From the NCBI GenBank assembly GCA_958295715.1, contig OY282371.1, forward strand, positions 2,031,697 through 2,095,696: a DNA stretch of 64,000 nucleotides. Direction: 5' to 3'. Below are positions 16,853 to 20,411 of the stretch, piece after piece (position 1 is the stretch's first letter; each line of letters opens with the position of its first letter). This DNA comes from an uncultured Dehalococcoidia bacterium. Lineage in GTDB: Bacteria; Chloroflexota; Dehalococcoidia; Lucifugimonadales; GCA-2712585. Below the pieces are notes generated by a model. That model saw nothing but the letters and a program-made list of their open reading frames with translations, ran no database searches and was not told the DNA's origin. The translations under genes and the position numbers were made by a program.

Positions 16853-16882
16853 TTGACGATTCCCGAAGGAATCTTCTAAAAT
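16853..16882 (+). promoter_or_regulatory. Promoter of the ilvBNC transcript
   Basis: TTGACG (16853-16858) and TAAAAT (16877-16882) are separated by 18 bp, placing transcription start near 16889, at the beginning of the T-box leader. Confidence 0.65.
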
Positions 16883-16888
16883 TGGTCT

Positions 16889-17117
16889 GAAAACATTCTT
16901 TAACGCAGTGAAGGGGACAACGCGGTTTCCGCCGCCACAGAGTGGGGACAGGGTGGAAGCCCCGCGCTAAGAGAGCCGCCCGGGAGCGGCCGGCCTGGAT
17001 TCAAGCAGGGCCGGACGGGACGCCCGTTGTAGCGCGTAGAGAGGCCCAAGGCCTTGGGCGGGAAGGGTGGCGCCACGGGGTAAGTCCGCCCCTTCAGTGG
17101 GGTGGGCTGTTTTTGTG
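16889..17117 (+). promoter_or_regulatory. T-box riboswitch leader upstream of ilvB
   Basis: Uncharged-tRNA-sensing leader. The stem I start resembles the GA/K-turn motif (GTGAAGGGGACAA), with an AGAG-type apical motif and GGGTGGAAGCCCC further on. The T-box sequence lies at 17063-17079: AAGGG, bulge beginning TGGC, then CACGG. It forms the antiterminator by pairing AAGGG with CCCTT (17090-17094) and CGG with CCG (17086-17088). These same bases are used by the terminator, giving the two exclusive folds. The specifier codon is not resolved by eye; Ile, Leu or Val is expected from the downstream genes. Confidence 0.85.
17083..17117 (+). terminator. Rho-independent terminator of the T-box leader
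   Basis: A 10-bp stem (17083-17092 with 17099-17108, including three G-U pairs) with loop TTCAGT, followed by GTTTTTGTG. It overlaps the 3' arm of the antiterminator, so charged tRNA should favour termination ahead of ilvB. Confidence 0.85.
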
Positions 17118-17165: not shown

Positions 17166-18842
17166 GTGAAGCTCACCGGCGGCCAGATAGTCTGCGAGTC
17201 CCTCATCAAGGAAGGGGTGGAGGTCATCTTCGGCATCCCCGGCGGCGCCATCCTGCCCCTGTACCAGGACCTGCCCCGGTATCCGCAGTTGCGCCACATC
17301 CTCATGCGCCACGAGCAGGGCGCCGCCCACGCCGCCGACGGGTACGCCCGGACGACGGGAAAGGTGGGCGTGGCCTTCGGCACCTCCGGCCCCGGGGCCA
17401 CCAACCTGGTGACGGGCATCGCGGCGGCGCAGATGGACTCGGTTCCCACCGTGTTCATCACCGGCCAGGTGGCCCGCGCCGCCATCGGCAAAGACGCCTT
17501 CCAGGAGACCGACGTCACGGGCATAACCCTGCCCATCACCAAGCACAACTACCTGGTGATGAACGCCTCAGAGGTTGCCGAAACCATCAAAGAGGCCTTC
17601 TACATCGCCAGCACCGGGCGACCCGGCCCCGTGCTGGTGGACATTCCCAAGGACGTGTTTACGGAGGAGGCGGAGTTCAGCTACCCGGAGTCCGTCAACC
17701 TCCCCAGCTACCACCTGCCCCAGGAAGCCGACCCCCGGGAGATACAGGCGGCGGCGCGCCTCATCAAGGAGGCCCGGAAGCCCCTGATACTGGCCGGCCA
17801 CGGCGTGGTCATATCCAGGGCCTTCGAAGAGCTGATGCAGTTGGCGGAGAAGGCCCAGATACCCGTGATAACCACCCTCTTGGGCATAAGCTCCTTCCCT
17901 GAGGACCACCCCCTCAGCGTCGGGATGCCCGGTATGCACGGCATGGCCCACGCCAGTCTGGCCATAGATGAAGCGGACCTGCTGCTGGGCCTGGGCATGA
18001 GGTTCGACGACCGCATCACGGGAGACCTGAACTCCTTCGCGCCCAACGCCAAGATCATTCACGCCGAGGTGGACCCCTCAGAGGTGCACAAGAACGTGCG
18101 GGCCACTGCCCCCCTAATAGGCGACCTGAAGAAGACGCTTAGGAAGCTCATCCCCGTCGTGGAACCCAAGTCCCACGAGGAGTGGTCGCAGCGCATAGCG
18201 GAACTGCGAATGGAGCACCCCCTCATGCGCCCCAGGACGGGCGGCGCCCTGCTGCCTCAGTACGTGATGCAGGCCCTGTCTAAGGCGACCAACGGGAACG
18301 CCGTCATAGTAACGGGGGTGGGTCAGCACCAGATGTGGGCCGCTCAGCACTACACCTTCACCCAGCAAAACAGTTGGGTAACCTCAGGCGGGCTGGGGGC
18401 CATGGGCTTCGAGGTCCCCGCCGCTCTAGGCGCGCAGGTGGGCCGCCCCGGCTCCGTGGTATGGTCCGTGGCGGGGGACGGCGGCTTCCAGATGACCATG
18501 TCGGAACTGGCGACCTTGGCCGAGAACAACATCCCCGTTAAGTTCGCCATAATGAACAACGGCTATCTGGGAATGGTGCGCCAGTGGCAGGACATCTTCT
18601 ACGAAAAGTCCTACGTGGCCACCCACTACACCCATAATCCGGACTTCGTGAAGCTGGCCCACGCCTTCGGCATCCACGGCGACCGGGTCACCAAGGAGGA
18701 GGAGGCCCTGCCGGCCATCAGGGCCGCGATGGAGCACCCGGGGCCGGCCCTTATCGACTTCGTGGTCGCCGAGGAGGAGAACGTCTACCCGATGATACCC
18801 GCCGGGGGGGCCGTCGCCGAGCTTATGGAAGAGCCCGTCTGA
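17166..18842 (+). CDS. ilvB: Acetolactate synthase large subunit
   Basis: 558 aa thiamine-diphosphate enzyme making acetolactate or acetohydroxybutyrate, the first shared step of Val, Leu and Ile synthesis. The catalytic Glu50 sits in RHEQGAAHAADGYAR. The ThDP motif runs from GDGGF (about 437) to NN (about 464). The FAD-region motif GMHGM is present. The GTG start is preceded by AGGAGG. Its TGA shares one base with the ilvN ATG, so the subunits are translationally coupled. It is controlled by the upstream T-box. Confidence 0.96.
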   Translation: MKLTGGQIVCESLIKEGVEVIFGIPGGAILPLYQDLPRYPQLRHILMRHEQGAAHAADGYARTTGKVGVAFGTSGPGATNLVTGIAAAQMDSVPTVFITGQVARAAIGKDAFQETDVTGITLPITKHNYLVMNASEVAETIKEAFYIASTGRPGPVLVDIPKDVFTEEAEFSYPESVNLPSYHLPQEADPREIQAAARLIKEARKPLILAGHGVVISRAFEELMQLAEKAQIPVITTLLGISSFPEDHPLSVGMPGMHGMAHASLAIDEADLLLGLGMRFDDRITGDLNSFAPNAKIIHAEVDPSEVHKNVRATAPLIGDLKKTLRKLIPVVEPKSHEEWSQRIAELRMEHPLMRPRTGGALLPQYVMQALSKATNGNAVIVTGVGQHQMWAAQHYTFTQQNSWVTSGGLGAMGFEVPAALGAQVGRPGSVVWSVAGDGGFQMTMSELATLAENNIPVKFAIMNNGYLGMVRQWQDIFYEKSYVATHYTHNPDFVKLAHAFGIHGDRVTKEEEALPAIRAAMEHPGPALIDFVVAEEENVYPMIPAGGAVAELMEEPV

Positions 18843-19375
18843 TGCCCCTCAACGAGTCGACCATAGTGGCCATGGTGCGGGACCGGCCGGGGGTGCTCAA
18901 CCGCATCTCCAGCATGTTCCGGCGCCGCAACTTCAACATCGTCAGCCTGGCCGTGGGGCAGTCGGAACAGCCCGGCATGTCGCGGATGGCCTTCGTGGTC
19001 AACGGCGACGACGCCACCGTGGAGCAGGTCATCAAGCAGCTGCGTAAGCTCATCGACGTCGCCTCAGTCTCCCTCATCCAAGAGGATACGATGATATCTC
19101 GCGAGTTGGCCCTCATACGGGTCAACGGGACGGCGTCCACCCGCGGCGAAATCTCCCAGATAGTGGACATCTATAGGGCCCACATCGTCGACATCGCCCC
19201 CGACTCGCTCATCGTTGAGGTCACGGGGGACGAGGACAAGGTCCAGTCCCTCAAGAACCTCCTCAACACCTTCGGCATAACCGAGATGATACGCACCGGG
19301 AGGGTGGCCATGGTCAGGGGGATGGCCCACGTCCATTCCAACAACTCCGGAAACCCAGCTAACCGGGCCGCCTAG
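18842..19375 (+). CDS. ilvN: Acetolactate synthase small (regulatory) subunit
   Basis: 177 aa with an N-terminal ACT domain (about 6-80) beginning [20 protein letters not shown] and a C-terminal IlvH-type domain. It activates IlvB and confers feedback control by valine. The length and two-domain form match IlvH/IlvN proteins. It overlaps ilvB by one base and is followed by ilvC after 37 bp. Confidence 0.95.
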
Positions 19376-19412: not shown

Positions 19413-20411
19413 ATGGCCATAATGTACTACGAGAAGGACGCGGACCTATCCCTGCTAGACGACAAGACCGTTGGAATCATCGGGTTCGGGAGCCAGGGCC
19501 ACGCCCACGCCCTGAATCTGAAGGACAGCGGCGCCCGGGTGATAGTCGGCCTCTACGAGGGCAGTTCCAGCTGGCCCAAGGCCGAAGAAGCGGGTCTTGA
19601 GGTGGCCACCGCCGCGGAGGCCGCCGAAAGGTCCGACATCATCACCATGCTGATACCCGACACCACCCAACCCCGGGTGTACCGGGAGTCCATCCTGCCC
19701 CACCTGGGCGAGGGCAAGACCCTAATGTTCGCCCACGGGTTCAACATCCACTTCAAGACCGTGGCGCCGCCGCCCAACGTAGACGTGTCCATGGTGGCGC
19801 CCAAGGCCCCGGGTCACCGTATGCGGGAGGTGTTCACCAAAGGCTCCGGCGTGCCCGGGCTGCTGGCCATACACCAGGACGTGTCGGGAACCGCGAGGGA
19901 AACTGGTCTGGCCTACGCCAAGGGTATCGGCTGCACCAGGGCCGGGGTGCTGGACACCACCTTCAAGGAGGAGACGGAAACGGACCTCTTCGGCGAACAG
20001 GCCGTCCTCTGCGGCGGCGTCACCTCCCTGGTGAAGGCGGGATTTGAGACACTGGTCGAAGCCGGCTACCAACCTGAGTCCGCCTATTTTGAGGTCCTTC
20101 ACGAACTCAAGCTCATCGTCGACCTGATGTACCAGGGCGGCATGGACTATATGCGCTACTCGGTGAGCGACACGGCGGAGTACGGCGACTACTCCCGCGG
20201 CCCTCAGGTGGTGGACGCGAGCGTTAAGGAGAACATGAAGCGGGTGCTGGCCGATATCCAGAGCGGGGCCTTCGCCAAGGAGTGGATTACGGAGAACGAC
20301 GAGGGCCGCCCCAGGTTCTACCGGATGCGCCAAACCGACGCCGAACACCCCTTGGAGAAGGTGGGCGCGGAGCTGCGCGCCATGATGCCTTGGCTGAAGG
20401 AGCAGGTGTAG
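19413..20411 (+). CDS. ilvC: Ketol-acid reductoisomerase (class I)
   Basis: 332 aa, class I length. It isomerises and reduces acetolactate to dihydroxyisovalerate with Mg2+ and a nicotinamide cofactor. The Rossmann motif [17 protein letters not shown] is at 24-40. The cofactor-specificity loop reads YEGSSS (48-53), lacking the Arg usual at the first position. The metal and substrate part includes VAPKAPGH, where PKGPGH is more common, and later [10 protein letters not shown]. It is the third gene of the T-box-controlled operon. Confidence 0.96.

Follow-up and report, generated by a model that had tools for sequence, protein, structure and literature searches.

Identification of the leader

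The region upstream of ilvBNC in an uncultured Dehalococcoidia bacterium raises the question of which tRNA, if any, is sensed by a leader whose acceptor-pairing bulge reads TGGC. The leader (16889-17117) was found in a stretch of 64,000 nucleotides, here called the window, from a genome of 2.40 Mb in two contigs. It sits between a promoter-like site and ilvB, the first gene of the ilvBNC operon. The features of the locus are as follows:

16853..16882, + strand: sigma-70-like promoter TTGACG-18-TAAAAT, retained (sequence scan)
16899..17096, + strand: degenerate T-box leader, RF00230 match over the full model length, below the gathering score (48.2 bits, E=1.4e-9)
17166..18842, + strand: ilvB, acetolactate synthase large subunit, 558 aa, GTG start, intact (TIGR00118, 768 bits, cut-off 538)
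18842..19375, + strand: ilvN, acetolactate synthase small subunit (TIGR00119)
19413..20411, + strand: ilvC, ketol-acid reductoisomerase (TIGR00465)

The promoter-like site, of which shuffled sequences gave a mean of 0.0 in 50 shuffles, has the same spacing as TTGACC-18-TAAAAT, seen by eye in L006 and L007, the leaders at the same position in two other genomes of the genus. The ilvB product is the only close IlvB in the genome (nine other matches are 27-35% identical), and its best 11 named relatives are all labelled Chloroflexi, Dehalococcoidia, Dehalococcoidales or SAR202.

A preliminary description, made from the sequence alone, had called the region a T-box leader on ilvBNC and proposed a covariance search for its specifier codon. 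In an Rfam scan of the window at the gathering threshold, three tRNAs were the only matches and the T-box was not reported; it was recovered when an E-value threshold was used instead. The alignment with RF00230 runs from end to end, at a score well under the gathering score of 93, and ilvB, ilvN and ilvC do follow downstream, so the first claim stands as far as descent is concerned; an Ile, Leu or Val specifier was not found in the leader. L006 and L007 scored 115.2 and 112.2 bits. Since the folding energy of the whole leader was no better than chance (z = 0.01 against shuffles), the evidence for a T-box comes from the covariance model and the orthologues and not from folding energy. At E <= 10 the whole genome contains two T-box matches, the ilvB leader and a Trp T-box. 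Judged by alignment and orthology, the leader descends from a T-box, but on its sequence it fails in features needed for sensing.

Comparison with other ilvB leaders

An IlvB match was obtained in 180 of 197 genomes. For the survey, 80 ilvB upstream regions of up to 484 bases each were collected from 79 genomes, mostly at the best-ranked IlvB matches with many skipped; the large family f41 was thinly sampled, and the counts hold for the 80. A T-box was found at E <= 0.001 in 72 of these regions. Together with L006 and L007 they gave 74 T-boxes for comparison, or 75 with the leader under study, whose Rfam score is the lowest of all; the next is 66.8 bits (L194) and the others, like the 72 surveyed, range from 66.8 to 133.7 bits. 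The eight regions without a T-box match held no convincing T-box remnant, and the bulge-like strings in three of them (L203, L212 and L216) were judged to be chance.

A specifier was assigned in all 74 of the other T-boxes (73 by pattern, with L007 added separately): Leu CTC in 64, Val in seven (GTA 4, GTC 2, GTG 1) and Ile ATC in three. The comparison supports the view that these relatives would act as tRNA-sensing attenuators of ilvB. One extra base lies between GAA and the codon in six of the seven Val forms and in one Ile form (L209), the reading frame there being our own assignment.

The specifier region

The leader under study differs from these relatives in Stem I, where two features were recorded:

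16905..16987, + strand: Stem I remnant, with the lower helix shortened and the specifier loop collapsed (alignment, free fold)
16975..16981, + strand: junction of an 8-nt gap at the place where L006 and L007 have their ATC specifier, its exact position ambiguous among GCC repeats (alignment)

At this place L006 and L007 read GCCACATCGCCCTGGAGC and GCTACATCACCCTGGAGC, which contain the Ile ATC specifier, and the aligned leader reads GAGAGCCG, the 8-nt gap and then CCCGGGAGC. Patterns for Leu, Val and Ile codons, the branched-chain codons being the only ones covered, gave no match at the specifier place of the leader. The GCC repeats beside the gap suggest that it arose by a slippage deletion. 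When Stem I was folded freely, its GC/GC base stayed unclosed in the leader and was closed in the five relatives folded (L006, L007, L143, L157 and L209). If the upper helix is formed as in the relatives, no 3' strand of the specifier loop would be left.

We therefore consider it probable that this leader is a T-box in decay which has become blind to tRNA, a reading drawn from sequence comparison and carried by the specifier gap together with the particular sites that were hit elsewhere. The gap could also be an error of sequencing or assembly, with an intact Ile T-box in the true genome, but we give this only a small chance. The leader is known from a single assembly, and one genome of the species does not separate a fixed deletion from an assembly error. 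Furthermore, short GCC repeats flank the gap, which falls within a GC-rich hairpin, and the base substitutions could then be composition drift in a leader that still works. However, such an error accounts for the gap only; the altered bulge and Stem II S-turn described below would need another cause, and it leaves unexplained an excess of changes (33:9, see below) that was counted on gap-free columns. In addition, ilvB, ilvN and ilvC are free of frameshifts, and inner stops are absent from nine of the ten IlvB-like matches and from leuA of this genome.

Stem I has other peculiarities. Its S-turn reads ACAA in the leader (16917-16920), L006 and L007, where most other ilvB T-boxes have AGTA, and in the intact L006 and L007 the specifier is preceded by CAC or TAC instead of GAA. 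Since ACAA is found in all three genomes of the genus and GAA is replaced in the intact leaders, the Stem I S-turn was evidently unusual before the gap arose. In the apical part, GGTTTCCGCC (16924-16933) can pair over ten positions with GGTGGAAGCC (16952-16961). This pairing is also possible in L006 and partly in L143, and would compete with the platform for the tRNA elbow.

The acceptor-pairing bulge and the tRNA genes

The reading of TGGC in the bulge, the feature that had first drawn attention to this leader, proved correct, with C at the position N that faces the discriminator base of the tRNA:

17068..17074, + strand: T-box bulge TGGCGCC (TGGTACC in 68 of the 74 other ilvB T-boxes; alignment)

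The 68 occurrences of TGGTACC comprise 65 found by pattern and three by eye (L192, L206 and L214). The remaining bulges are TGGTAAC and TGGCACC, twice each, and TGGTGCC and TGGTATC, once each; TGGCGCC was found in none of the 74. The base after TGGC is thus G in this leader, and A in most others.

The genome was found to have 47 tRNA genes, whose discriminators were tabulated. All nine branched-chain tRNAs found, namely Ile(gat), Leu(caa, cag, gag, taa, tag) and Val(cac, gac, tac), have discriminator A, in agreement with the earlier remark that this is usual for them; the comparison with the tRNA genes that had been proposed alongside the covariance search hence gave no Ile, Leu or Val tRNA with discriminator G. 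That base is carried by the Asn, Asp, Gln, Ser and Trp tRNAs, by four of the five Arg tRNAs and by one Thr tRNA for which the assignment of the end was not clean. While UGG is kept, the C at N mismatches the discriminator of every branched-chain tRNA found. Two of the 74 other leaders (L172 and L218) also have N = C, each with a Leu CTC specifier. Of the two genomes concerned, G146 has a tRNA-Leu(gag) with discriminator A, and G007 yielded two Leu tRNAs, both with A, but no gag tRNA. Because N = C occurs in two leaders that bear a specifier, it is by itself no proof of loss.

For the mismatch, the preliminary description had offered a shifted bulge, relaxed pairing or an unexpected tRNA. Relaxed pairing does occur elsewhere, in the two leaders just mentioned, but none of the three explanations fits best, since the leader lacks its specifier and shows changes in further T-box modules, which points to decay. 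One form of the third, a T-box retuned to another tRNA, would have tRNA-Ser(GCU) as its best candidate, read by AGC at 16974-16976, one base off the usual register. The tRNA-Ser(gct) has discriminator G, so that an AGC specifier and a TGGC bulge would agree, and the rule of TBDB, as it is described in PMC7778990, also considers specifiers in shifted frames and favours those whose tRNA agrees at the discriminator. Nevertheless, we regard retuning as very improbable. The segment containing this triplet, GAGAGCCGC, is identical in L006 and L007, in which it is able to build the helix above the specifier loop, and is most simply an inherited helix rather than a codon newly gained. Read in the usual register, the triplet would be GCC, for Ala, whose discriminator A again mismatches, and the 3' side of the loop is gone if the upper helix forms. 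We know of no link between serine and the control of ilvBNC, which was also counted against this reading. Annotation that chooses a specifier by its discriminator match should be treated with caution, since it could label this leader a serine T-box.

Stem II and the expression platform

The modules downstream of Stem I were located as follows:

16988..17019, + strand: Stem II, with its S-turn (GAA / AGTA) changed on both sides, to GGA (16997-16999) and AGCA (17004-17007) (alignment, by eye)
17044..17059, + strand: Stem III hairpin (sequence, RF00230 alignment)
17062..17095, + strand: antiterminator region, with helix A1 (GAAGGG/CCCTTC) and helix A2, which has an A-C mismatch (17075, 17089) at its base (sequence, folding)
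17083..17117, + strand: intrinsic terminator of 10 pairs with a T-run, retained (scan, -20.5 kcal/mol)

The Stem II S-turn, which has been reported to stabilise the specifier-anticodon duplex (PMC7583486), retains GAA and AGTA in L006 and L007. In the antiterminator region, GAAGGG (17062-17067) can still pair with CCCTTC (17090-17095) as helix A1. The fold in which the region pairs with itself (-14.7 kcal/mol) is nevertheless preferred to the open-bulge form (-10.6 kcal/mol), which is the one that takes the tRNA end and is the minimum in the three others folded (L006, L007 and L143).

The terminator hairpin (17083-17108, 10 pairs) is followed by GTTTTT. Terminator-like sites are no rarer in shuffled sequence, with one found against a mean of 0.6 in shuffles. 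The string CCGCCCC, which the preliminary description had seen in both folds, indeed lies in the 5' arm of the terminator (17086-17092) and in the antiterminator fold, and in the folding models the two structures are mutually exclusive through the shared arm 17086-17095. The equilibrium probability of the terminator is 0.88 for this leader; it is lower in 27 of the 75 leaders and equal in two (at least one by failed terminator detection). Furthermore, it is 0.88-0.91 with 0 or 5 extra bases at the 5' end and 0.14-0.16 with 10 or 15. As this probability neither separates the leader from the others nor is stable to the choice of 5' end, it was not used as proof.

The same instability belongs to a variant of the decay reading which ends in constitutive expression, and its confidence overlaps with that of decay itself. 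Here TGAAGGGG (16909-16916), which is the 5' side of Stem I and has been left without a partner, would pair with the terminator arm CCCCTTCA (17089-17096) as an antiterminator that does not depend on tRNA. In a transcript cut before the 3' arm of the terminator, the pair probabilities are 0.82-0.94. The low terminator probability (0.33-0.36 when calculated by pair) is obtained with 5' ends near the predicted start, and L006, L007 and L143 stay at 0.91 or above with the same added bases. A leuA leader that lacks a T-box would be uncoupled as well. On the other hand, the prediction flips back with 0 or 5 of these bases, a switch that works during transcription is poorly predicted by equilibrium folding, and 13 other specifier-bearing leaders of the 75 also fall below 0.25 (at least one of them, L210, because the script found no terminator). 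We hold this variant possible but doubtful. The further proposal that loss of the specifier freed the Stem I 5' strand to serve as a built-in antiterminator, so that the riboswitch would have gone through a definite intermediate state, with its sensor lost and its expression platform rewired, unlike the outright loss at leuA, appears rather unlikely.

Under the decay reading in general, the leader RNA would be unable to read the anticodon or to clamp the acceptor end, ilvBNC would be uncoupled from tRNA charging, and its expression would depend on a fixed proportion between terminated and read-through transcripts. The end-to-end covariance alignment argues against decay, as do the promoter, the terminator and helix A1, which remain as in a working attenuator. 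From the sequence comparison, it is most likely that the response of this leader to tRNA has been lost.

Divergence of the leader and of ilvB

In an alignment of the 75 leaders, the leader under study departs at 16 of the 69 columns for which at least 90% of the others agree (two of the 16 fall in the specifier region, where the count varies with how the gap is placed). The mean number of departures elsewhere is 2.5 and the next highest is 11. Among the changed sites are the Stem II S-turn (GAA to GGA and AGTA to AGCA), a GTTA that reads GTTG (17029) and two positions of the bulge. L006 and L007, with 7 and 8 departures, are already above the average, and some of the divergence must therefore be older than the loss.

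To see where changes accumulated, the window's genome (G000) was compared with G003 on gap-free columns, with G004 of the same genus as reference; the ilvB identities among the three genomes (0.806, 0.798 and 0.795) do not resolve their branch order. In the leader, G000 has 33 changes of its own and G003 has 9. The corresponding counts are 107 and 111 in the first 1428 bases of ilvB (Fisher p=6e-4 against the leader) and 56 and 88 at its third codon positions (p=7e-6). At codon positions 1 and 2, however, they are 51 and 23, which does not differ from the leader (p=0.29), and the leader is thus not alone in its excess. Counts in the sequence flanking the leader upstream were 41:35 (p=0.0098 when compared with the leader), a weak control because only 288 of about 580 columns were aligned. 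The counts at codon positions 1 and 2 made decay slightly less probable in our judgement, and raised a little the small chance of a sequencing error and, by still less, that of retuning to tRNA-Ser.

Composition is also involved. The ilvB GC3 is 0.88 in the window's genome, 0.74 in G003 and 0.82 in part of that of G004, and changes from A/T to G/C make up 21 of the 33 changes in the leader and 13 of the 16 at conserved columns. The higher G+C content and the direction of the changes indicate that composition drift contributes. The rate evidence thus supports a weakened constraint without showing that the leader alone is affected, and constrained sites may be changing faster in this genome generally. 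The excess at codon positions 1 and 2 of ilvB (51:23), with none at third positions (56:88), looks as if the constraint on the protein were weaker here too.

Relation to described T-boxes

The leader resembles the ilv-leu operon T-box leaders of RF00230 in gene context, module order, the arm shared by antiterminator and terminator, the promoter and the terminator, and its position is orthologous to that of the Ile T-boxes L006 and L007. It differs from that family in its missing specifier, its altered Stem II S-turn, its bulge TGGCGCC and its score below the gathering threshold. The ilv-leu T-box of Bacillus subtilis has a CUC specifier, and T-boxes are known to duplicate and to change specificity (PMC2494555).

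Degenerated T-boxes were mentioned in passing by Wels et al. (2008; PMC2494555). Shared with the present leader is a T-box that can still be recognised, though damaged, before a gene that would be its expected target. Unlike it, those cases precede MFS transporters and are marked only by an asterisk in a figure legend, whereas here the missing part was identified against orthologues of the same genus. Degenerated T-boxes as such had thus been noted before, and what is added is the comparison with intact leaders of the genus. A literature search, judged by titles and the beginnings of abstracts, found no paper on a T-box without a specifier, and for degenerated T-boxes it gave the mention by Wels et al. 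only. Within one order there is a series, with Leu, Val and Ile specifiers, eight of 80 ilvB regions without a T-box match, and one leader apparently in between.

The leuA and Trp leaders

The state of T-box control was also followed at leuA. A Leu T-box of 114.4 bits precedes leuA in G003. The window's genome also possesses leuA (88% identical), but the Rfam search found no T-box upstream of it. For G004, the family search gave the ilvB and Trp T-boxes only, and no T-box bulge was seen in its printed leuA upstream sequence. On sequence evidence, T-box control of the branched-chain genes thus looks intact in G003. At leuA it appears to be lacking in both G004 and the window's genome, and in the latter the ilvB copy looks damaged too.

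Despite the missing T-box, the segment adjoining leuA is conserved in G000 (L142) and G004 (L224). A lone string AACTCGCCCC upstream of leuA in G004 is a possible remnant. Upstream of leuA, a small conserved ORF overlaps a hairpin in G000 (L142/L226, G000:C1:11085-11172), G003 (L227), G004 (L228) and G009 (L230, G009:C1:299125-299188), the last belonging to another family of the order. The peptides contain AVCVPLT (G000), AICVPLT (G004), AVCVLLM (G003) and ADCVPLT (G009), and the hairpins AGATCGCC/GGCGGTCT in G000 and AGTTCGCC/GGCGGACT in G009 show, by eye, a compensatory change. The element has no Rfam match of its own. By DNA it was matched in five of the 197 genomes, one of which (G095) is unrelated by context. 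A CVPLT-like peptide pattern, which cannot match the diverged CVLLM of G003, was found among 30 leuA upstream regions (G009 lies outside these) in G000, G004 and one unrelated match (G040). The element is a candidate leader peptide or attenuator, and may replace T-box control.

The Trp T-box of the window's genome (L001, G000:C1:1373991-1374231) likewise scores below the gathering threshold (59.6 bits), as do its apparent counterparts in the genus, L010 and L011 (72.4 and 87.7 bits). Its bulge is also TGGC. Unlike the ilvB leader, it has a specifier, TGG, seen by eye in GAA-TGG-ACC, and since the tRNA-Trp has discriminator G, both of its contacts agree.
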